A stretch of DNA of 64,000 bases from assembly GCA_019637395.1 (NCBI GenBank), contig JAHBVR010000003.1, positions 1 through 64,000 of the forward strand. Reading direction: 5' to 3'. A model generated the notes under the pieces. That model was not told the origin of the DNA, ran no database searches, and saw only the letters and a program-made list of their open reading frames with translations. Origin of the DNA: Vulcanimicrobiota bacterium. GTDB taxonomy: Bacteria; Vulcanimicrobiota; Xenobia; Xenobiales; JADMJV01. The position numbers were made by a program, and so were the translations under genes. Shown here piece after piece: positions 29,848-40,583 of this stretch (its first letter is position 1; each line of letters begins with the position of its first letter).

Positions 29848-30837
29848 TTGCGACAAGCACGAGCAAATACTGAAGAGCCGCGCAAGCGTTTAATCAGCGT
29901 TGTCACTCCCTGTTTCAATGAAGAACAGAATGTGGTCGAACTCTATCGGCGCGTCCGTGCCGTCATGCAAGCCGAAACCGGCTACCGCTATGAACACATC
30001 TTTATCGACAATGCCTCTACCGATCAAACGGTAGCCGTGCTCAAGCAGTTGGCCGCGGATGACCGGCACGTGAAAATCATCGTCAATGCCCGCAATTTCG
30101 GCCACCTACGCTCGCCTGTCCACGCTCTCTGCGAAGCGCGCGGAGCGGCCCGCATCCTCATGGTCTCCGACCTGCAAGACCCGCCCGAAATGCTGGCCGA
30201 TTTTCTGCGTAAGTGGGAGGAAGGCTTTGACATTGTGGTCGGTGTCAAAATCGGCAGCGAAGAAGCCAAGCCCATGTATCTACTGCGCCGCCTTTACTAC
30301 AGCGTGCTGGCGCGCTTTGCCGAAGTTCCCCTGGTGCAGAATTTCACCGGCTTCGGACTTTACGATCGCAGGGTGATTCGCCGCCTGCAAAAATTCGGCG
30401 AACCTTATCCTTATCTCCGCGGCCTGGTTAGCGAAACCGGCGGATCGATCTGCGAAATCCCTTACTTTCAGCCCATTCGCAAGCGCGGCATCACCAAAAA
30501 CAACTTCTACACCTTGTTTGATCTGGCCATGCTGGGCATGACCAGCCACTCCAAGGTTCCCCTGCGTTTCACCACCGGCCTGGGCTTTCTTTTGAGTCTC
30601 ATCAGTCTGCTGGTGGGCCTGGGCTACTTCATCGCCAAGCTCATCTTTTGGAATAACTTTACCCTGGGAATCGCCCCCCTGGTAATCGGAGTATTCTGGA
30701 TCAGTTCCGTACAGTTGTTCTTCCTGGGTGTCGTGGGAGAATACCTGGGCGCGGTTCATACCCGGGTGACCAACCGGCCTCTGGTCATTGAGAAAGAACG
30801 CGTCAATTTTCGCGGCAAGCGAGCTTGCCTCAAATGA
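29848..30837 (+). CDS. GT2 glycosyltransferase with two C-terminal membrane helices
   Basis: An N-terminal family 2 domain (LISVVTPCFNEEQNVVELYR, VSDLQDPPE with the metal-binding Asp) is followed by helices at about residues 240-310 (LRFTTGLGFLLSLISLLVGL and VFWISSVQLFFLGVVGEYLG). This is the layout of ArnC/GtrB-like enzymes that pass a sugar to polyprenyl phosphate. TTG at 29848 is the called start. The stop overlaps the rfbH start as ATGA, so the two are coupled, which suggests that this enzyme handles the CDP-dideoxy sugar or its acceptor. Confidence 0.85.
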   Translation: MRQARANTEEPRKRLISVVTPCFNEEQNVVELYRRVRAVMQAETGYRYEHIFIDNASTDQTVAVLKQLAADDRHVKIIVNARNFGHLRSPVHALCEARGAARILMVSDLQDPPEMLADFLRKWEEGFDIVVGVKIGSEEAKPMYLLRRLYYSVLARFAEVPLVQNFTGFGLYDRRVIRRLQKFGEPYPYLRGLVSETGGSICEIPYFQPIRKRGITKNNFYTLFDLAMLGMTSHSKVPLRFTTGLGFLLSLISLLVGLGYFIAKLIFWNNFTLGIAPLVIGVFWISSVQLFFLGVVGEYLGAVHTRVTNRPLVIEKERVNFRGKRACLK

Positions 30838-32147
30838 GTAAGCGCGAGCAAATACTGGCCCTGGCCGAGGAATATTTCGCCGAACAGTTTGCCGCCAGGG
30901 ATTTCGTTCCGGGCGTCACCCCGCTGCCGGCCAACGGCAAGGTCTTGGACGCCTCCGACCTGCGCAATCTGGTGGATTCCTCGCTGGATATGTGGCTGAC
31001 GGCCGGACGTTTCTCCGAGTTGTTTGAGCGCAAGTTCGCCCAGACCTGGGGGGCCCGCTTTTCATTGCTGGTCAACTCCGGCTCAAGCGCCAACCTGCTG
31101 GCTTTCGCGACCTTGACCAGTCCCTCGCTGGGCGACCGCCAACTGAAGCCCGGGGACGAATTCATTACTCCGGCCTCCGGTTTTCCCACCACCATCAACC
31201 CCGCCATTCAGCACGGGCTGGTGCCGGTTTTTGTGGACGTGGATGGGAAGACCCACAACATGACGCCCGAAGCCGTGGCCGCCGCCATCGGACCCAAAAC
31301 CAAACTGGTCATGGCCGCCCACACCCTGGGCAACCCCTTCGATTGTCACGCCATCGGCGACTTGTGCAAGCAACACGGCATGTGGCTGGTCGAAGATTGC
31401 TGTGACGCCCTGGGAGCCCGGCTGAACGGAGAGCACGTGGGCAACCGCGGGGACCTGGCCACCTGCAGTTTCTATCCCGCTCATCACATCACCACCGGCG
31501 AGGGCGGAGCAGTTCTGACCTCCCGGCCCTACCTGAAAAAGATCGCCGAGAGCTTCCGCGACTGGGGGCGCGACTGCTACTGCGCCCCAGGCTGTGAAGA
31601 CACCTGCGGCAAACGTTACAACTGGCAGCTCGGGGAACTGCCGACCGGCTACGATCACAAGTACATCTACAGCCACATCGGCTACAACCTGAAGGCGACC
31701 GATATGCAGGCCAGTCTGGGTCTTTCGCAATTAGAACGACTCGAGAGCTTCATTGAAAAGCGCCGCAGCAACTTCGGCTTTCTTAAGAACGCCCTGAAGA
31801 TTCGCGGCGCCGAGGAGTTTTTCGAATTCCCCGAGGCCCTGGCCAACGCCGAGCCCTCCTGGTTCGGCTTCCTGCTCACCCTCAAAGGCGACCGCATCTC
31901 CCGGCCCTGGCTACTGGAAGAACTGGGTCAGCGCAAAATCGGAACTCGCTTGCTGTTCGGCGGCAATCTGACCAGGCAACCCGCTTACTTGCGCCTCCCC
32001 AAAAGAGTGGTGGGCGAGCTGTCCAATACCGACATCATCATGAACCGTTCCTTCTACGTCGGGGTCTGGCCCGGACTGACGGAAGCGATGTTGGACTATA
32101 TGGCCGAGCAGTTGGTGGCGCTATGTCGCTGCTCCGTCCCGAAGTAA
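30834..32147 (+). CDS. rfbH: CDP-6-deoxy-4-keto-hexose 3-dehydrase (E1)
   Basis: This PMP-dependent iron-sulphur enzyme removes the C3 hydroxyl of CDP-4-keto-6-deoxyglucose. The usual aminotransferase Lys is replaced by His in SFYPAHHITTGEGG, the mark of E1 enzymes. Four Cys in DCYCAPGCEDTCGKR (about residues 246-260) would hold the [2Fe-2S] cluster. The start is the ATG at 30834, overlapping the GT2 stop. Length is 437 residues, as expected. A matching E3 reductase is not seen in this window, so electrons must come from a protein encoded elsewhere. Confidence 0.95.
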   Translation: MSKREQILALAEEYFAEQFAARDFVPGVTPLPANGKVLDASDLRNLVDSSLDMWLTAGRFSELFERKFAQTWGARFSLLVNSGSSANLLAFATLTSPSLGDRQLKPGDEFITPASGFPTTINPAIQHGLVPVFVDVDGKTHNMTPEAVAAAIGPKTKLVMAAHTLGNPFDCHAIGDLCKQHGMWLVEDCCDALGARLNGEHVGNRGDLATCSFYPAHHITTGEGGAVLTSRPYLKKIAESFRDWGRDCYCAPGCEDTCGKRYNWQLGELPTGYDHKYIYSHIGYNLKATDMQASLGLSQLERLESFIEKRRSNFGFLKNALKIRGAEEFFEFPEALANAEPSWFGFLLTLKGDRISRPWLLEELGQRKIGTRLLFGGNLTRQPAYLRLPKRVVGELSNTDIIMNRSFYVGVWPGLTEAMLDYMAEQLVALCRCSVPK

Positions 32148-33043
32148 CATCCCTTGTCCTCGGCTCCGCTGACCTGTGGCCGGCGCTAGCCGGTAGTCGC
32201 ATCTTCCTGACGGGAGCTTCGGGTTTTTTTGGGTGCTGGCTACTGGAAACTCTGTTATTCGCCTCCGATCATTTTGAATTTGGAGTGGAAGTGGTGGCTC
32301 TGACTCGGACTCCTGACCGATTTCTAACCAAAGCGCCCCACCTGGCCGGGCATCCGCGAGTCACACTCTGGCCAGGCGACATGCAAGACTTCTCGTTTCC
32401 CCCCGGGCCCTTTTCTCACATCATCCACGGCGCTGCCGAAGTCAACAGCGACCTGGGCCTCTTAGCCGGAGGGAAGCGGGTGCTGGAATTGGAGTCCGAA
32501 CGTTTTTTGCTTATCAGTTCAGGAGCGGTCTACGGCCCCGCCGCCGGATTTATCAGCGAGGAGCACCCGGCCTCCCCCATCACCGACTATGGGCGCGCCA
32601 AACTTCAACTGGAACAGGCCTGCAACCCAAGAGCCGTCATCGCACGCTGCTTTACCTTCTTGGGCCCTTATCTATCTCTGCATTCCGGCCTGGCCGCCGC
32701 CGATTTTCTGCGCGACGCGCTGGCATGCCGCCCTCTCAAATTGCAAGGCAATGGAGAAACCCGTCGCTCCTACCTCTACGCCGGCGATCTGGCCATCTGG
32801 CTGTGGACGCTACTGCTGCGAGGCACCCCCGGGCGAAGCTACAACGTTGGATCCATGGATGCCATTCCAGTGATCGAACTGGCCCGGCGAATCGCCGGCC
32901 CAAATCCGGTGCAAGTGCTGGGCAAGGAGGCCGGCAGTGACTACCTACCCGACACCACCCGCGCCCGGCAAGAATTGGACCTGCGCCAAACCGTCGACCT
33001 GGACGAAGCCGTGGCGCGCACCTGGAACTGGCTTGGACGATAG
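32123..33043 (+). CDS. NAD-dependent CDP-sugar reductase/epimerase
   Basis: A 306-residue extended short-chain enzyme: FLTGASGFFGCWLLE is the dinucleotide motif, LLISSGAVYGPAA has the catalytic Ser and YGRAK the Tyr and Lys. It overlaps rfbH by 25 bases, so it is coupled to it. In CDP-dideoxysugar clusters this slot is held by abequose/paratose synthases or by the reductase YerF. Because a YerE-like gene lies nearby, YerF-type reduction of the branched sugar is the favoured reading. The first 25 residues precede the fold. Confidence 0.8.
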   Translation: MSLLRPEVTSLVLGSADLWPALAGSRIFLTGASGFFGCWLLETLLFASDHFEFGVEVVALTRTPDRFLTKAPHLAGHPRVTLWPGDMQDFSFPPGPFSHIIHGAAEVNSDLGLLAGGKRVLELESERFLLISSGAVYGPAAGFISEEHPASPITDYGRAKLQLEQACNPRAVIARCFTFLGPYLSLHSGLAAADFLRDALACRPLKLQGNGETRRSYLYAGDLAIWLWTLLLRGTPGRSYNVGSMDAIPVIELARRIAGPNPVQVLGKEAGSDYLPDTTRARQELDLRQTVDLDEAVARTWNWLGR

Positions 33044-33077
33044 GGGAGTCGTGTCCCGTTTCGGGAATTGAACACCT

Positions 33078-33929
33078 ATGAACGGGCTGTCACTGACCAA
33101 CGATATCGTTTTCAAGCTCGTCTTCGGCGCCGAGAAGCGGGAGCGTATCCTCCGCGCTCTTCTCAATGCCGTCCTTGGTCTCAAAGGGCCTGATCGTATT
33201 GTCAAGCTTACCATCATCAATCCCACTCTGGATAAGGCTCATGCCCTGGCCAAGAATTGCATCCTGGATATCAAAGCTCGTGATGGCCGCGGCCGCCGCT
33301 TCAATGTCGAAGTTCAGGTTAGCCGCGACCCCAATTACTTGAACCGCTCCCTTTACTACCTGACCAGTCTCTTCTCCGAACAACTCCAACCTGGCGACGG
33401 CTATGACGAGATCACCAAAGTGGTCAGCCTCTCCTTCGTGGACTACACACTCTTTCCCGACCAGGAATCTCTGCACAGCACTTATCGCCTGTATGATGAG
33501 GAAAACAAAAGGCACTTCCCCGATATCCTGGAGCTTCACTATATCGAGTTGAGCAAATTCAAAAAGGACAAGCCTCAAGATCTGAGGTCCCGTTTTGAAC
33601 GCTGGTTACACATCTTGAAGTTCGGGGAACTCTATCGCGATCAAAACTCGCCCATCCCTGCTAAGCTCATACAAGACAAGGAGGTCGTTATGGCACTCAA
33701 AACCTACCGCCAGGTCAGTTCATCCCAGGAGGTGCGAGAATTGCTCCTGTCAAGAGAAATGGCTGAGCGTGACCGGATCACCAGTCTCAAGCGAGCCTAC
33801 AAAGAGGGCGAACTCAAGGGCGAACTCAAGGGCAAGCTCGAGGCGGCTCAGGCTATGCTATCGCTTGGGATTGACCAGGCCACGGTCTGCGAAAAGTTAG
33901 GCCTTAAACCTGAGGACCTGTCTAGGTAG
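33078..33929 (+). CDS. Rpn/PD-(D/E)XK transposase-like nuclease
   Basis: The 283-residue chain begins MNGLSLTNDIVFKLVFGAEK, characteristic of the recombination-promoting nuclease (RpnA-like) and PDDEXK_2 family. Active-site residues are in ILDIKARDGRGRRFNVEVQV (Asp and the ExQ pair). The region NYLNRSLYYLTSLFSEQLQ and the C-terminal EGELKGELKGKLE stretch are also typical. Such genes are often mobile; members related to RpnA nick DNA and raise recombination. It sits between two sugar genes, with no inverted repeats seen, and overlaps the thiamine-enzyme gene by 8 bases. Confidence 0.85.
   Translation: MNGLSLTNDIVFKLVFGAEKRERILRALLNAVLGLKGPDRIVKLTIINPTLDKAHALAKNCILDIKARDGRGRRFNVEVQVSRDPNYLNRSLYYLTSLFSEQLQPGDGYDEITKVVSLSFVDYTLFPDQESLHSTYRLYDEENKRHFPDILELHYIELSKFKKDKPQDLRSRFERWLHILKFGELYRDQNSPIPAKLIQDKEVVMALKTYRQVSSSQEVRELLLSREMAERDRITSLKRAYKEGELKGELKGKLEAAQAMLSLGIDQATVCEKLGLKPEDLSR
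33807..33839 (+). repeat. 12-base tandem repeat in the Rpn-like gene
   Basis: GGCGAACTCAAG occurs twice head to tail (33807-33818 and 33819-33830) and is followed by a partial third copy. It encodes GELKGELKGKL. Slippage here would change repeat number without a frameshift. Confidence 0.7.
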
Positions 33930-35628
33930 ACTCCATCGCCACCGACTTGAAGAACGGCTCCATCTCCGTCATCGGGCGCCCGAAAGCAATCTTGGGGTAG
34001 GCATTGGCATAGGTATCGACCATGACTTGCAGTAGTCCCGGAGCCAACGGATCTTGCCAAAGCTTCCGCAACCCCTCAGCGACATCCTCGGGCTGGTGCA
34101 CGGTGTAACCTGCGATACCGTAAGCTCCGGCAATCTTCTCGAAGTCCGGCGCCGAATAGCCCCAGAGTGTCGACTGGTAGCGAGCATCGAAGTAGTTCTC
34201 CTGAAACTGGCGGACCATACCGTGGCATTGGTTATTGATGATGACCATCTTGAGGGGGAGCCGGTTGCGCACCACCGTTTGCAGCTCCTGGATATTGGCC
34301 TGGAAGGCACCGTCGCCGGCTACCATGACGACGGGTTGGCCCGGGCGGCACAAGCAAGCCCCGATGGCTGCCGGCAAGGCAAAGCCCATCGAGCCCATTC
34401 CTCCCGAAGTCAAAAACCGCTGCCCGGCCTGGAGATGCAGGGACTGGGCGGCCCACATCTGGTGCTGCCCGACATCCACCACGTAAGCGGCCGCCTGAGC
34501 GCCGCTCACCGACAGCTCGCGCATAAAGACGTTAGGATTGATGCCCGGAAGCTCTTTCAATTCGGCCGTATCCGGCCACTCTTGCTCGAGCGCCTGCAAG
34601 CGGCCGCGCCAGTCAGCAAAAGCGCCGTGGGGCAGCCGGCCGGCGGCGGCGAAGAAGTCGGGGAGTTCACTGACCAGACCCTGACAGCCGCTGAGCCGAT
34701 TGTTAATCTCGCCGGGTTCGCAATCGACGTGAAAAATCTCTCGATTGGATTTGAAAGCATCGGTATCATTGCCGGTCTGGCGAATATCCAGACGGCTACC
34801 CAGCACAATCAGCAAGTCCGCCTCGCCCAGCGCCAGGTTGGCCCAGCGATTGCCGTAGCTGCCGATAAAGCCGATGCGCAACGGATGCTCGAACGGAATC
34901 GTGTCCAATCCCATTAACGAGCACACCACCGGCACTCCCGTGGCCTCGGCGAAAGCCACTAATTCACTCGAGGTTCGCGAGGCGCCCACCCCACCGCCCG
35001 CCAGAATCAAAGGCCGGCGGGCAGTGCGCAAGGCCGCGGCCAGGTTCTCGAAAAAAGCCTCACTCTCGGGCGCTTCCGTGACCCTCCTCGGAAGAGGAGG
35101 AACGGCTTCCACCTGGGCCCGTTGCAAATCCATGGGAACGTCGATCAGCACCGGGCCCGGGCGGCCCTCGACGGCGACTCGAAAGGCCTCGTTGAGGATG
35201 GCCGGCAGTTCGGCTGCAGTTTTGACGCGCCAGGCCTGCTTGGTGATCGGCTCGGCCATGGCCACGATATCGGTTTCCTGGAAGCCCAACTGGCGGATAG
35301 CTCGTTCCCCCTTCTGCTCGTGCAGATTGACCTGGCCGGTGATGAACACGCCTGGCGAGGAGTCAAAATGACAACTGCCGATACCGGTCAGCAAATTGGT
35401 GGCCCCCGGGCCCGAAGTGGCCATGGCCACCCCCGGAATCCCCGTCATGCGGCCGGCCGCGTCGGCGGCGAAAGCAGCCGCCTGCTCGTGGTGTACGCTG
35501 ATCACCGGCACCGTTCCCTGGCGGTTCAGAGAATCGAGGATATGCGTGATCATCCCCCCGGACATCTCAAAAACACAGGTCACGCCGTGCTGTTCAAGTG
35601 CCCAGGCGATATAATCAGAAGCTTTCAT
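33922..35628 (-). CDS. Acetolactate synthase-like thiamine enzyme (YerE-like)
   Basis: Three thiamine-enzyme domains are visible: VFEMSGGMITHILDSL, then HHEQAAAFAADAAGRM with catalytic Glu at residue 48, and the ThDP motif GDGAFQANIQELQT with NNQ about 30 residues on. ATG at 35628 is preferred over a start 15 codons upstream because MKASDYIAWALEQHG is the normal beginning. The FEMSGGMITH form is one I associate with YerE, which adds a two-carbon unit from pyruvate to a CDP-4-keto-3,6-dideoxyhexose to make yersiniose. With rfbF, rfbG and rfbH in the window, this substrate is plausible. A plain acetolactate synthase is less likely here. Confidence 0.82.
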   Translation of the reverse strand: MKASDYIAWALEQHGVTCVFEMSGGMITHILDSLNRQGTVPVISVHHEQAAAFAADAAGRMTGIPGVAMATSGPGATNLLTGIGSCHFDSSPGVFITGQVNLHEQKGERAIRQLGFQETDIVAMAEPITKQAWRVKTAAELPAILNEAFRVAVEGRPGPVLIDVPMDLQRAQVEAVPPLPRRVTEAPESEAFFENLAAALRTARRPLILAGGGVGASRTSSELVAFAEATGVPVVCSLMGLDTIPFEHPLRIGFIGSYGNRWANLALGEADLLIVLGSRLDIRQTGNDTDAFKSNREIFHVDCEPGEINNRLSGCQGLVSELPDFFAAAGRLPHGAFADWRGRLQALEQEWPDTAELKELPGINPNVFMRELSVSGAQAAAYVVDVGQHQMWAAQSLHLQAGQRFLTSGGMGSMGFALPAAIGACLCRPGQPVVMVAGDGAFQANIQELQTVVRNRLPLKMVIINNQCHGMVRQFQENYFDARYQSTLWGYSAPDFEKIAGAYGIAGYTVHQPEDVAEGLRKLWQDPLAPGLLQVMVDTYANAYPKIAFGRPMTEMEPFFKSVAMEST

Positions 35629-35688
35629 GGCGGCCGCGTTCGTGCGACCCCAGGCAAATCCTGGGAAGGACAAGCACCTGCGAACTCA

Positions 35689-35865
35689 ATCAGGCAACTG
35701 GCTCAAGCAGGTAACGCAACCGTGGCGATCCACAACCTGAGCCGGTGCCACCGCTGGGCCGTCAGATGGGCATTGAAGAAGTCGACCTGGCCCTTCAGGA
35801 GTGCTTTCCGCGCCATTGGCCTGACGCGGTCATGCGCTTCGTCGCCCTACGCGCTCGTTGACGAA
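35689..35865 (+). pseudogene. Remnant of a second galE gene
   Basis: Reading the plus strand gives IRQLAQAGNATVAIHNLS then RCHRWAVRW, which aligns with KHLSQAGHEIVVLDNLGRGH and RWAVKW of the intact GalE. One frame on, GIEEVDLALQECFPRHWPDA and VMRF match GLLEEVDL and RHRPDAVAHF. A third frame gives SPYALVDE for AYALVGE. Two frameshifts are needed to follow it, so it is dead. The remnant runs the same way as the intact gene at 26,031. Confidence 0.75.
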
Positions 35866-36629
35866 GGGTGCATGCCCTTGCTGGTTAATCTACGCAGAAT
35901 CAAACGTGCCGTTTGCCGGGCGTCGCCCCTTGGTCCGGCCCAGAAGATTGCGTTCTGCACACAAGTGCTGAGACAGCTTAAGGCCAAGCCGGGAGCTTTT
36001 CGGGCGGTGACCGTGTGAGCCATCAGTTCCATCGCGGCGCGGCCGGGACTCAGTTCCGTGGGTTTCCAACTGCGTCCTGCTTGATACCTTGTAGCAATCA
36101 CCGCTACTACCGGTGACGGAATGGCGCATAAATGCTCGGGTGACAGACGTTGACCACCGTCCACTCGTAAAGCGATGGGGCGAGGAAAAGGATGGACAGC
36201 GCCGGTCTGATCTATCACGGCGTATTCATCCGAAAGATACTCCGCGCCCTCCTGAACCAGCTGGTGGGTTAAGGTTGACTTTCCTGAAAAACTGCTCCCG
36301 GGTATTAAAATAACTCTACCTTGCCAGGCAACAGCTCCGGCATGCACAAATACCACACCCTGACAGTGGTTCGCCAGATAGAAATGTATCCGTCGTTCTA
36401 AAGCTTCGAAGATATCGGCTCGGTGTGGACGCGGCGGTTCGTCGTCCGGGCCGTGGATGAGCACGGCCCCATCCGGACACGATGAAATGCGGAAGACGGC
36501 AGTCGGAATTAACTCGGGCTGGTGTGACCAAATTGGTAGTAACAAGCTCCAAAGACACTCATCCAGCTCAGGGTTGTCCCATTCTAAAGCAATCCGAACC
36601 CCGAAGTAGACAAACTTAAGAAGAGCCAC
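35847..36629 (-). CDS. HprK-related serine kinase-like protein
   Basis: The Walker A motif VILIPGSSFSGKSTLTHQ and the following YLSDEYAVIDQTGAVHPFPR match the HPr kinase-related group found beside PqqD-like genes. It differs from true HprK by its N-terminal region. A GTG at 36629 is proposed as the start (about 260 residues); the open frame further left would run into the divergent amidotransferase. The last codons (GMHPSSTSA) read through the antisense of the galE remnant, so the original C-terminus may have been lost. The kinase target is unknown. Confidence 0.75.
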   Translation of the reverse strand: MALLKFVYFGVRIALEWDNPELDECLWSLLLPIWSHQPELIPTAVFRISSCPDGAVLIHGPDDEPPRPHRADIFEALERRIHFYLANHCQGVVFVHAGAVAWQGRVILIPGSSFSGKSTLTHQLVQEGAEYLSDEYAVIDQTGAVHPFPRPIALRVDGGQRLSPEHLCAIPSPVVAVIATRYQAGRSWKPTELSPGRAAMELMAHTVTARKAPGLALSCLSTCVQNAIFWAGPRGDARQTARLILRRLTSKGMHPSSTSA

Positions 36630-36703
36630 GAAACGTTCCCGTTCCGTGGTCTTAGAGCGAATCCTGCGAGGATTCCAGTCCAGTTTGCGAAAGAGGGGCC
36701 GCC

Positions 36704-38563
36704 ATGTGTGGTATTGTCGGGCTTTATCAGACGGGCGTTGGATTAACTCAGGAAGAGACCCGCTTCCGTGTGGAAACCATGCGAGACAGCCTCCGACATC
36801 GCGGCCCCGACGACGCTGGGACCTGGCTCGAACCGAATGGCCGCCTGGCAATGGGACATCGCCGACTCGCAATCTTGGATCTTAGCCCCGAAGGGCACCA
36901 ACCAATGGCCTCCAGGGACGGACGTTATCAGTTGGTTTATAACGGCGAAGTCTATAATTTCTTAGAACTACGCAGACAACTGGAACAATTCGGTCACCAC
37001 TTCAATGGGAGTTCCGATACTGAAGTGCTTCTCGCCGCCTTCTGCCAATGGGGCCTGGAGAACACCCTGCCGCGCTTAAACGGTATGTTCGCCCTGGCTC
37101 TCTGGGACGCTCGCGCTCAGCGCCTGGCCCTGGCGCGGGATCGCTATGGCAAGAAACCTCTTTACTACGGCCTTGTTGGTGAAGCCTGGGCCTTCGCTTC
37201 TGAGCTTAAAGCGCTGAAAACTCTTCCCGAATTCGACTCTTCCGTAAACCGCGCGGCATTAGGCGAGTACTTTCGATTGGGTTACGTACCCGCCCCCCTT
37301 AGCATCTATCAGGGCATTCATAAACTGCCGCCAGCAAGCTTTTGCTGGCTACCCGAAAGCCCTAAACCGTACTGGACCCTCGGCGCCACCGCCAGGAGTA
37401 ACCAACCAACCAGCCTGGAACAGATAGAGCAGGCGTTATTGACCGCAGTCAAACTACGTATGGCTTCGGACGTTCCTCTTGGCGCCTTTTTATCGGGTGG
37501 AATCGATTCATCCTTGATCGTGGCCATGATGCAGGAGCAGAGTGACCAACCTGTACGTACCTTTAGCTTGGGATTTCATTCCGCGACCCACGACGAGGCC
37601 ATTTATGCCCGCAAAGTTGCGGAACATCTGGGTACTCAACACGTCGAGCACTATGTGACGGCGACGGAGGCTCTGGATGTGGTCCCGCATCTACCTCGAT
37701 TCTACGATGAACCGTTCGCCGACTCGTCTCAGATCGCCACCTATCTGGTTTCAAAACTGGCCCGCACACAAGTTACCGTGGCCCTCTCTGGCGACGGTGG
37801 AGATGAAGTGTTTGGAGGCTATAACCGCTATCTATTTGCTCCTCAAGTTTGGCGGTGGCTTCGCGTCCTGCCCCTATCTCTGCGAAAAATTTTGAGTGCT
37901 CTTGTGAATCGTCTGCCGCTAAGCTTGCTGGAACCGTTGCTGGCCGGGCGTGTCTCCTATCCGAAAGAAAAGCTCACCAAGCTGGCCCATCTTCTACCTT
38001 GCCGAGACGAGGCTGAGATCTACCGCTCGTTGATCTCCCAATGGCAAGAACCGCGCTCGGTGGTTATCGGCGCCGCCCCTCCAATACCCGAAAAGCCTAT
38101 CAATGGTGATTTCGTGCACTGGATGATGATTCGAGACGCGCAGACTTACCTGCCCGATGACATTCTGGTCAAAGTCGACCGTGCCTCCATGGCGGTCAGC
38201 CTGGAAGCCCGCGCTCCCCTGCTGGACCCGACCGTGACCGACCTGGCCTGGCGACTTCCCCGCGAGCAGAAAATTGAGGGGCGCGAGGGCAAACGTATTC
38301 TTCGCAAGCTACTCTATAAACGGGTCCCATCCTCTTTGTTTCAACGTCCCAAGGCGGGGTTTTCCCTTCCCCTGGGAGACTGGTTGCGAGTGGAACTCAG
38401 GGACTGGGTCGAGACGATGCTGGAAACGGTCTCGAAGGATGGCTACCTCAGAGTCGAACCAGTTCGAAGAATATGGAGGGAGCACACCTCAGGTTATCGA
38501 GATCGGAGCGCGGCGCTCTGGACCGTCCTAATGTTTCAGGCCTGGATGAGGGAGGCTCGTTAG
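36704..38563 (+). CDS. asnB: Asparagine synthase-like amidotransferase
   Basis: This 619-residue protein starts MCGIVGLYQTG, with Cys2 as the glutaminase nucleophile, and continues as a class II GATase domain to about residue 200. The synthase domain has FLSGGIDSSLIVAMM (ATP pyrophosphatase loop) and VALSGDGGDEVFGGYNRY. In exopolysaccharide loci this family often amidates a sugar acid or peptide rather than Asp. It is divergent from the HprK-like gene (74-base gap) and is followed after 146 bases by the PqqD-fusion gene. Its true acceptor is not evident. Confidence 0.9.
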   Translation: MCGIVGLYQTGVGLTQEETRFRVETMRDSLRHRGPDDAGTWLEPNGRLAMGHRRLAILDLSPEGHQPMASRDGRYQLVYNGEVYNFLELRRQLEQFGHHFNGSSDTEVLLAAFCQWGLENTLPRLNGMFALALWDARAQRLALARDRYGKKPLYYGLVGEAWAFASELKALKTLPEFDSSVNRAALGEYFRLGYVPAPLSIYQGIHKLPPASFCWLPESPKPYWTLGATARSNQPTSLEQIEQALLTAVKLRMASDVPLGAFLSGGIDSSLIVAMMQEQSDQPVRTFSLGFHSATHDEAIYARKVAEHLGTQHVEHYVTATEALDVVPHLPRFYDEPFADSSQIATYLVSKLARTQVTVALSGDGGDEVFGGYNRYLFAPQVWRWLRVLPLSLRKILSALVNRLPLSLLEPLLAGRVSYPKEKLTKLAHLLPCRDEAEIYRSLISQWQEPRSVVIGAAPPIPEKPINGDFVHWMMIRDAQTYLPDDILVKVDRASMAVSLEARAPLLDPTVTDLAWRLPREQKIEGREGKRILRKLLYKRVPSSLFQRPKAGFSLPLGDWLRVELRDWVETMLETVSKDGYLRVEPVRRIWREHTSGYRDRSAALWTVLMFQAWMREAR

Positions 38564-38709
38564 TACAGAACTCCACACTTCTCCACTATAAGAACAAATC
38601 TATTGCCCCTGACACCACTTAATGCACCCACAGACTGGCTAAATTCTACCAAACGGAACACAAACCTACCATAGACAGGCGCAGATCTTCCACATAGATT
38701 GATCGCGTC

Positions 38710-39360
38710 ATGAAAGCATATCTGCGTAGACCAGACCTCATAGAACAACCGTTGGGGACTGAGGTTCTCATCTATGATTCGCGCACAGCCCACTGTCATG
38801 TCTTAGCCAGGCAGGCGGCTGAACTTTGGGAGCTACTGCTCCTGCCCCACACACTCCCCGAACTAACGGAGAAGTTCGCTGACAAATGGCCGGATTTCAC
38901 CCGCGAAATGATGACAGTCCTGCTCTCGGAATTCCAAGATAAAGGTCTCTTAGCCGATGGCTCTCCGGAAACAAAGTCTGGCCCCGGTCGTCGAAAAATT
39001 CTGAAAGCTCTGGGGGCGGGACTTTTGCTTTCGTCGGTGGCCCCGACTGCGGCAGCGGCGGCCAGTACCACCCTGAGGATCATCAATTCCCGATACGGTG
39101 CCAACATTGCTACTCGCCTGCTGTGCGGAAGACCGGGCGTAACCCTCGGCAACGGAGATTTCAATAATGTGACTACCGTTATCCGAGGACTGATCTCCGG
39201 CAACAGTTTGAGCGTCCCCGTCAATAACAGTGGAGTGCTCGGCTCCGGTCCGTATCCCGCCCTGGTTCAAGAACTGATCGTCGGCTACACCTGCTCAGAT
39301 GGTGTGTTCCGCCAAGAGCGGACCTGCGACGGTGGACTTTTGACTATAAAATGTCCCTGA
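38710..39360 (+). CDS. PqqD-like domain fused by a twin-arginine signal to an exported Cys domain
   Basis: Residues 1-85 have the PqqD-like (RRE) pattern: LRRPDLIEQPLGTEVLIYDS, HVLARQAAELWELL and LLSEFQDKGLL. Next, GRRKILKALGAGLLLSS (about 93-110) is a twin-arginine-like export segment ending in Ala-rich APTAAAAA. Residues 117-216 read IINSRYGANIA, VTTVIRGLISG, VNNSGVLGSGP and ELIVGYTCSDG, resembling a YG...VT...G.P domain (DUF3395-like in my recall) with four Cys, one of them in the final KCP. PqqD domains normally bind a peptide in the cytoplasm, so an export segment in the same chain is unusual. The last 10 bases overlap the O-antigen ligase gene. Confidence 0.75.
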   Translation: MKAYLRRPDLIEQPLGTEVLIYDSRTAHCHVLARQAAELWELLLLPHTLPELTEKFADKWPDFTREMMTVLLSEFQDKGLLADGSPETKSGPGRRKILKALGAGLLLSSVAPTAAAAASTTLRIINSRYGANIATRLLCGRPGVTLGNGDFNNVTTVIRGLISGNSLSVPVNNSGVLGSGPYPALVQELIVGYTCSDGVFRQERTCDGGLLTIKCP

Positions 39361-40583
39361 CGGTAGGCAGCTTGAGGGGGACTGCTTCACTGGACAGACT
39401 CTGCCAATCGCTCCTATTCTTTCTCGCGCTGACCTTACCACTGGCGCGAATTCCCTTTCCCAGTTCCAATTCTGTCTTGCCGGGACAGGATTTGCAATTA
39501 TTCGATCTTATCGCTTGCCTATCGGCAGTGACGGCCATTCTGTGCTTCATGTTCCGGCCCAACTTTCGTCACCTGGTCCCACTCCTATACCCTATCGCCC
39601 TGGCGGTCAGCGCCTCCGTTTCCGAAAATCCAGGGCAATCCGTAATCCCGTTGGCCAAAGCTATATATCTCTCAGGCCTGGCTTGCCTCGTTCAGGTATT
39701 TCTCGATCGTTCTCCCCAGAAAGGGCATAGGTGGCTAAGATGGGGCTGGCTCGCCGGTCTGACTTTAACCTGTTTCTGTATCATACTGGGCGTTATCGGC
39801 TTCTACTCGGGCTGCAGCACCCAGCAAACGAACATTTTTCTGTTCCACTACGGTTCGATCAAAGCCGGCCATTTTCCAAGAGTGTGCGCCACTTTTTTTA
39901 ACGCCAATCTGCTTTGCAACTATTTACTGGTCAGTCTCGCCTGGCTCAAGAGCGTTCGCGCGCGAGCCCTTGTCGCGTTGTGCTCCCTAGCCACACTATC
40001 CCCCGGTCTCGGACCGCTCTTTCTCCTGTTCCTGTGGGACTTCAAATCCAGACCCTCCCGCATTGCCGGGACGGTCATCGCCCTGACGATGTACCTGCTG
40101 ACCTGGACCTACCCCAACGACTTGTTTCAAGGTCACTTTCGAGCCAGCGGCCGAGTGGAATGCTGGCGCCAATCTACAAACCTGTGGCTGCAGTCACCTT
40201 TACTTGGGCAAGGTCCCGGTCAGGCTTTGGTCCTTGTACGCTGGCAGGCTCCCGATGGAGCGATTGGGACGCTCACCGATCCCCACAACACAAGCTTGAG
40301 CCTCTTGTCCCAAGGTGGAGTGCTGCTTATGGCCGTGGTCATGACCGTTTTTCTCACCAACAGAGCCAACTGCGACCGGGAGTTATTCAAAGCCATCCTC
40401 CTGGCGTTCTGGCTTGACGGTCTAACCGGCTCTTTCGAGGATGCACGCCATATTTGGGTGGCAATTGGAGCCCTGTGCTTATTTCCCGCGGCGGCCGGGT
40501 CGGAAGTGGGTCACAACTGCCAGAAGTACGTGTGCCCGCTCCCTTCTCGGCTCAACCCACCCGTGAGGTCGACCACAATCTGA
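39351..40583 (+). CDS. O-antigen ligase/polymerase family protein
   Basis: A 410-residue polytopic protein (about ten hydrophobic segments) with a large periplasmic loop before the last helices containing GRVECWRQSTNLWLQSPLLG, GQGPGQAL and DPHNTSLSLLSQGG. These are typical of the Wzy_C/WaaL family, which joins or polymerises lipid-linked glycan at the outer face of the inner membrane. The ATG overlaps the PqqD-fusion gene by 10 bases, suggesting coupled expression. The last 73 bases overlap, in opposite direction, the end of the UDP-GalNAc dehydrogenase-like gene. Confidence 0.85.
   Translation: MSLTVGSLRGTASLDRLCQSLLFFLALTLPLARIPFPSSNSVLPGQDLQLFDLIACLSAVTAILCFMFRPNFRHLVPLLYPIALAVSASVSENPGQSVIPLAKAIYLSGLACLVQVFLDRSPQKGHRWLRWGWLAGLTLTCFCIILGVIGFYSGCSTQQTNIFLFHYGSIKAGHFPRVCATFFNANLLCNYLLVSLAWLKSVRARALVALCSLATLSPGLGPLFLLFLWDFKSRPSRIAGTVIALTMYLLTWTYPNDLFQGHFRASGRVECWRQSTNLWLQSPLLGQGPGQALVLVRWQAPDGAIGTLTDPHNTSLSLLSQGGVLLMAVVMTVFLTNRANCDRELFKAILLAFWLDGLTGSFEDARHIWVAIGALCLFPAAAGSEVGHNCQKYVCPLPSRLNPPVRSTTI

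Follow-up and report, generated by a model that had tools for sequence, protein, structure and literature searches.

In this study, we describe a kinase gene and a precursor-like gene that lie together in the first 64 kb of contig C23 (JAHBVR010000003.1; these 64,000 nucleotides are referred to as the window) in the 7.66 Mb genome of a Vulcanimicrobiota bacterium (GCA_019637395.1). The second gene encodes, in one chain, a PqqD-type RiPP recognition element (RRE; RiPP, ribosomally synthesised and post-translationally modified peptide), a twin-arginine translocation (Tat)-type signal and a variable tail, and is called RRE-Tat here. The HprK-like kinase gene and the RRE-Tat gene form a real unit that recurs in many phyla, with a PF14907 nucleotidyltransferase as its third partner. 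With a little less than even confidence, we suggest that they represent a widespread, undescribed RiPP-like class in which the RRE and a Tat-type signal are built into the precursor, and in which one kinase (together with a nucleotidyltransferase) would tag many exported, hypervariable, disulfide-rich mini-proteins, knottin-like peptides and lectins included, beside the mature N-terminus.

An initial annotation of the window had placed a kinase, an AsnB-type amidotransferase, a PqqD-like protein and an O-antigen ligase side by side. All four genes are present, and the overlap that it had reported between the PqqD-like and ligase genes is real, the ligase start lying 10 nt before the RRE-Tat stop; the kinase, AsnB and PqqD-like genes, described as a fusion, are three separate genes. 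The kinase start listed originally (TTG at 36872) is overlong and runs into the AsnB start. The features are given below; outside the window, genes were called as simple open reading frames.

35847..36629, minus strand: HprK/PEPCK-fold kinase by TIGR04352 match (64.6 bits) and fold; probable GTG start at 36629, divergent from AsnB
36273..36299, minus strand: kinase Walker A motif, GSSFSGKST
36704..38563, plus strand: AsnB, exopolysaccharide-type amidotransferase; TIGR01536 above cut-off; judged a bystander
38710..39360, plus strand: RRE(PqqD)-Tat-lectin-like precursor, 216 amino acids
38710..38949, plus strand: RRE/PqqD domain, residues 1-80; predicted structure matches TbiB1 (5v1v), 6jx3 and PqqD (5sxy)
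38989..39063, plus strand: twin-arginine-type signal RRKILKALGAGLLLSSVAPTAAAAA, residues 94-118; R94 in 72/72 and R95 in 70/72 relatives
39064..39066, plus strand: Ser119, conserved Ser/Thr position after AxA; proposed phosphate acceptor, inferred from PMC13381572
39064..39357, plus strand: putatively exported tail, SUEL/L-rhamnose-binding-lectin-like by tail-family profile; 4 Cys
39351..40583, plus strand: Wzy_C O-antigen ligase/polymerase-like membrane protein (E 1.9e-10)

Architecture of the RRE-Tat precursor

The window precursor is composed of an RRE/PqqD domain (residues 1-80), a linker, the signal RRKILKALGAGLLLSSVAPTAAAAA, which reads RRKIL...APTAAAAAS, Ser119 and a 97-residue tail. 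By sequence, the PqqD match of the first domain is weak (Pfam E 0.043). In the AlphaFold model, the predicted local distance difference test (pLDDT) score was above 90 for most of residues 1-80, and Foldseek returned leader-bound lasso B1 proteins (5v1v, TM 0.80 by target; 6jx3) and PqqD 5sxy, with modest E-values of 0.005-0.4 and probabilities of 0.9-1.0. As modelled, residues 1-80 match a beta3-alpha3 winged-helix RRE fold. The PqqD-like call of the initial annotation thus stands for this domain, and what it missed is the continuation into a Tat-like signal and a putatively exported lectin-like domain. AlphaFold also places a low-confidence strand at a conserved LPVVxSIVAP stretch, and one idea is that this stretch might be the ligand of the RRE in cis.

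Conservation was counted over 72 aligned RRE-Tat members unless stated otherwise. R94 is invariant (72/72), R95 is found in 70/72, P112 in 69/72 and S108 in 60/72, while RR is present in 78 of 80 sequences. The second position after AxA is occupied by Ser in 55/72 and by Thr in 8/72 members (63/72 together), and after clustering at 50% identity Ser was the majority residue at the post-AxA position in 26 of the 30 clusters. The motif has the features of a Tat substrate, namely a twin arginine, a hydrophobic stretch, AxA and TatC in the genome (8/8 genomes tested), and from these sequence features we infer that the tails are exported via Tat.

Cysteine makes up 8.7% of the tails compared with 1.6% upstream. 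The number of Cys is even in 64 of the 65 Cys-bearing tails, most commonly 6 or 8, and in 12/12 after merging of similar tails; knottin-like spacing was seen in 18/72 tails versus 3 in shuffles, and small disulfide-toxin Pfam families were matched weakly by single tails. Between tandem copies in Richelia and Okeania, identity is 92-98% for the RRE and 88-96% for the signal versus approximately 30% for the tail, and because of this difference RRE-Tat is, judging from sequence, a conserved leader joined to a diversifying product. About ten loci, including one in the genome under study, have as neighbour a MauE-thioredoxin fusion, which is expected to aid extracytoplasmic disulfide formation.

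The window tail alone gave no Pfam match. A profile of five related tails matched L-rhamnose-binding lectins (5h4s, E 1.2e-13; CSL3, E 4.8e-8), and the window tail appears to be related to the SUEL/L-rhamnose-binding-lectin domain (PF02140), from whose known members it differs in being bacterial and in having a single divergent domain that follows an RRE-Tat leader. The genome carries six RRE-Tat-tail genes including the window copy, five beyond the one first noted. They share a build of RRE, RRx(F/I/V)L, hydrophobic stretch and AxA-x-Ser with differing tails, which are lectin-like in three, Cys-rich in two and contain a von Willebrand-type domain in one. Multiple full-length copies were also found in several genomes of the same genus, family and order; in the same-genus genome G001 the RRE-Tat match is only partial.

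Some leaders in this collection are followed by other arrangements. Long glycine-rich tails (VTVTGGxGG...) that are not Cys-rich were found at L052:7625-8578, L057:6399-7376 and L062:4194-5408, and apparently two tandem PqqD/RRE-like domains precede the Tat-type signal at L056:6353-7378 and L058:6032-7051. At L044:4883-6847, a leader carries a von Willebrand-type (YfbK-like) domain and is directly followed by a PF14907 nucleotidyltransferase gene, without a kinase.

The HprK-like kinase and its linkage to RRE-Tat genes

The window kinase has an intact P-loop, and a fold search with its AlphaFold model identified the HprK/PEPCK fold, although the kinase profile had no match among PDB sequences. 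Its best family is HprK_rel_A (TIGR04352), at 63-65 bits versus a cut-off of 200, and all 66 kinases compared match this model. A His, the P-loop Lys and an S-D-E motif are invariant among these 66 relatives; the His-Lys-Asp-Glu set is the counterpart of the His-Lys-Asp-Asp residues required in lasso kinases (PMC9266682). The kinase of a same-genus genome is 63.7% identical to that of the window.

A kinase-profile search of one genome per species yielded 265 relatives, of which the best 80 were analysed, or 77 after removal of loci from the window's own lineage. An RRE-Tat gene was present in 50 of the 77 loci, distributed over many phyla, and in 42 of these it had the orientation of the kinase gene and lay no more than 400 bp away. 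A nucleotidyltransferase gene was likewise found in 50/77 loci and was identified as PF14907 in the three members tested. Clustering of the neighbours of all 80 kinases gave three widely recurrent genes: the kinase, RRE-Tat and the nucleotidyltransferase. In the genome under study, a PF14907-type gene is located outside the window.

Separate searches for each gene, free of kinase-first bias, were performed on 119 genomes of the Acidobacteria phylum. RRE-Tat was found in 6, the kinase in 6 and both in 5 (hypergeometric probability about 2e-7, calculated by hand, for genomes that are related and not independent). Each kinase in the co-occurring genomes lay within 2.5 kb of an RRE-Tat gene, and in three of the five a single kinase was accompanied by 2-3 RRE-Tat genes, with the additional copies located on different contigs. 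In the window's phylum, a kinase match was present in every genome with a full RRE-Tat match, and an HprK-like gene adjoins four of the five other paralogs in the window's genome (the C7 copy lacks the P-loop and the C1 copy has its P-loop Lys replaced). The association of kinase and PqqD-like protein to which the initial annotation had drawn attention is, on both searches, a genuine and widespread unit. The family extends to at least Acidobacteria, Gemmatimonadetes, Cyanobacteria, Chloroflexi, Myxococcales, Planctomycetes and Alphaproteobacteria, cultured hosts included, and a plasmid search returned a sole, unannotated record from Gemmatirosa kalamazoonensis.

Two further groups of kinase homologs were observed. 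A pseudokinase branch of the window lineage (DRLGWxxGFSF...GVRxND), without a clear P-loop, occurs alone or beside RRE-Tat genes at L042:5294-6112, L046:2936-3676, L051:4743-5537, L053:3390-4142, L055:2851-3612, L061:5251-5961 and L149:6365-7129. In four same-genus genomes (L148, L152, L153 and L154), a kinase of the same family is found in a conserved chromosomal context without an RRE-Tat gene; it possibly has substrates elsewhere or a separate role.

A possible modify-then-export system and its alternatives

The LPP clusters of Paenibacillus (lppA-K-B-S-D-N) are situated in capsule loci and encode the HprK-like kinase LppK, a discrete RRE and an NTP (nucleoside triphosphate) transferase; Ser3 of AQSNWK is phosphorylated, right after the leader cut (PMC13381572). 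The RRE-Tat loci resemble them in the HprK-like kinase, the RRE, a precursor with conserved N-terminus and variable C-terminus, the polysaccharide context and a Ser just past the leader cut; an uncharacterised NTP transferase accompanies many of the relatives' loci, but not the window pair. In LPP clusters the RRE is discrete, the precursor is encoded separately, and there are genes for a SipW-like peptidase and an MsbA-like exporter, whereas in the present loci a single chain comprises both RRE and precursor and bears a Tat-type signal and a Cys-rich tail; most of these loci are not from Bacillota. No widely recurrent SipW-like peptidase or MsbA-like exporter gene was found among the neighbours of the 80 loci, a genome-wide search with family models not having been made. 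In lasso clusters, the target of HprK-type kinases is a Ser of the precursor, and the phosphate comes to carry a hexose owing to a neighbouring nucleotidyltransferase (PMC9266682). The paeninodin/pseudomycoidin-type proteins PadeK, ThcoK, PsmK and PsmN have in common with the present loci the HprK-type kinase with His-Lys-Asp-Asp(Glu), the nucleotidyltransferase partner and a pathway RRE; PadeK, ThcoK and PsmK act on the Ser at the C-terminus of a lasso precursor, whereas the present loci have no B2 protease, lasso cyclase or separate precursor.

We give an even chance to the reading that the kinase and RRE-Tat genes constitute a modify-then-export system acting on a self-docking precursor. 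Precursor and docking domain would reside in one RRE-Tat chain, whose N-terminal RRE would recruit the HprK-like kinase and, where present, the PF14907 nucleotidyltransferase. Guided by the RRE in cis, the kinase would phosphorylate the conserved Ser/Thr one or two residues past AxA before export; this step is proposed because the conserved Ser sits where the LPP Ser does, and by this analogy the kinase probably phosphorylates the secreted part at that Ser. The Tat-type signal would then export the tail, signal peptidase would remove the RRE and signal, and the tail cysteines would form disulfides outside the cytoplasm, aided at some loci by the adjacent MauE-thioredoxin protein. A single kinase would serve several precursors of one genome.

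Several observations weigh against modification followed by export. The proposed acceptor position holds Ala, Gly or Asp in 9/72 members, and some members carry Thr, which LppK does not accept (PMC13381572). Generic Tat models match only 1-2/72 members, and the RR is reached only after about 94 residues, which is unusually far into the protein for a Tat signal. No RRE-Tat gene was found in the examined stretch of 27/77 kinase loci, about half of the RRE-Tat genes in the window lineage have no nearby kinase, and neither kinase, AsnB nor ligase is adjacent to the same-genus syntenic ortholog (L047/L147; 62%), which lies between a GalE-like gene and a thiamine pyrophosphate (TPP) enzyme gene. Some kinase-like partners in the window lineage (L041, L042 and L046) are devoid of the P-loop or of its Lys, and not all of these partners can therefore be catalytic. 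Such P-loop-less neighbours of some copies, the scarcity of Tat-model matches, the position of the RRE far upstream of the signal and the tails that are long ordinary domains (von Willebrand-type, glycine-rich) would all suit a membrane-anchored sensor or surface protein, with the hydrophobic stretch as an uncleaved anchor, the RRE as a cytoplasmic binding domain, the kinase as partner or regulator and the tail unmodified. We hold this to be rather unlikely: AxA-x-Ser and the Tat-type RR are conserved in nearly all members, and the short even-Cys tails of 40-odd residues resemble released products. It also seems improbable that RRE-Tat is an ordinary exported protein whose RRE recruits the kinase and nucleotidyltransferase to another target (peptide, sugar or lipid). 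In favour of this reading, the usual ligand of an RRE is a leader peptide on another chain (PMC7470986, PMC12710340), and there are kinase loci devoid of RRE-Tat, but the kinase neighbourhoods show no recurrent third gene for a short precursor, one kinase may go with several RRE-Tat genes, and the leader/tail divergence pattern points to RRE-Tat itself.

The proposal of the initial annotation, that kinase, AsnB and PqqD-like protein jointly carry out a peptide or protein modification connected with glycan ligation, has become very unlikely. In its favour are the adjacency of the genes and the 10-nt overlap with the ligase, the capsule-locus position that LPP clusters show too (PMC13381572), an AsnB C-terminal fragment that abuts a kinase in the same-genus genome (same contig as the L147 ortholog, 9.6 kb away) and the clustering of RRE-Tat with Wzy_C in the window lineage. 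Four genomes together contain 18 Wzy_C genes, and five of these have an RRE-Tat gene no more than 4 kb away compared with about 0.1 expected (calculated by hand), two of the five being orthologous loci and both kinds of gene favouring polysaccharide regions. The window AsnB has the N-terminal Cys (MCGIVG) and SGG.DS loop intact, scores 481.7 bits for TIGR01536 (cut-off 267) and fits best an exopolysaccharide amidotransferase/asparagine synthetase. AsnB was, however, found in only 3/80 kinase loci; AsnB-like genes are common (5-12 per genome in these genomes), only the window copy of the five in its own genome lies beside a kinase, and the syntenic same-genus copy has neither AsnB nor ligase. 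AsnB did not show the co-conservation that had been proposed as its test and was rejected as a core component; since it is rare in kinase loci and unconserved with the kinase/RRE-Tat pair, it is judged a bystander. A decayed or partial lasso-peptide cluster, in which kinase, RRE and AsnB-like proteins are known (PMC9266682), is extremely improbable. As noted originally, there is no lasso protease nearby (a PF13471 match to the B2 peptidase is weak, below cut-off and on another contig); AsnB scores 226 bits versus a cut-off of 525 for NF033535 and is not a lasso cyclase, and the RRE is fused to an export signal. A lasso cluster was rejected on the protease and AsnB results.

Other known systems were compared. 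The NCBIfam HPr-rel-A models (TIGR04352 HprK_rel_A and TIGR04353 PqqD_rel_X) describe the same kinase superfamily with a PqqD-family partner, so the kinase/PqqD link had already been noticed. Membership was rejected, since the scores are far below the cut-offs (HprK_rel_A 63-65 versus 200 bits; PqqD_rel_X 19.3 versus 35 bits), and PqqD_rel_X is a 74-position domain without signal or tail. The SynChlorMet cassette was rejected as well, as matches to the ScmC/ScmD models were weak and no recurrent radical S-adenosylmethionine gene was noted among the kinase-locus neighbours. Bufferin-type systems (DUF2063 RRE, DUF2282 precursors) also combine an RRE and a precursor with an export signal, but have another modifying enzyme and a separate RRE, and are not known to include an HprK-like kinase. 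Their export signal is of the Sec type (PMC12710340). Nothing fitting was retrieved when the literature was searched for PqqD together with partners of twin-arginine or Cys-rich type; most subscription papers and preprints were beyond the reach of this search, and an earlier description is possible.

To our knowledge, the docking domain and substrate of RRE-dependent pathways are separate chains, or the RRE is carried by the enzyme. If the modify-then-export reading is true, a precursor with its own RRE and export signal would be a compact way of tagging and exporting diversifying disulfide-rich proteins. As cultured hosts are included in the family, the kinase-substrate prediction is directly testable. 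Long PqqD-domain proteins without other annotation make up 21% of PF05402 proteins (PMC12710340), and the RRE-Tat reading could assign a function to some of them.

The surface-polysaccharide neighbourhood

Upstream of the RRE-Tat gene, the region 30825-35673 encodes RfbH (CDP-4-keto-6-deoxyglucose-3-dehydrase, E 3e-162), together with an epimerase/reductase and a TPP enzyme of acetolactate-synthase-like type, a set that resembles the biosynthetic pathway of yersiniose and other branched 3,6-dideoxyhexoses. The order of the sugar genes beside the RRE-Tat gene is kept in the same-genus genome (L147). Because the tail is syntenic with sugar genes in two genomes, our guess is that the lectin-like tail may bind a sugar of this branched 3,6-dideoxyhexose type. 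As the lectin-like tail of the window product is encoded in a surface-polysaccharide locus, this product is probably a sugar-binding protein that is secreted or located at the surface and bears a phosphate tag, perhaps with further glycosylation. Of the association with a polysaccharide ligase suggested originally, the enrichment within the lineage stands, while the absence of the ligase at the same-genus ortholog indicates that it is not general; a link of RRE-Tat genes to surface polysaccharide is plausible in the window lineage only. The sugar locus further contains a PD-(D/E)XK gene of the Rpn/PDDEXK_2 transposase type (33078-33929), of which a shorter relative is found at L147 (7312-7806).

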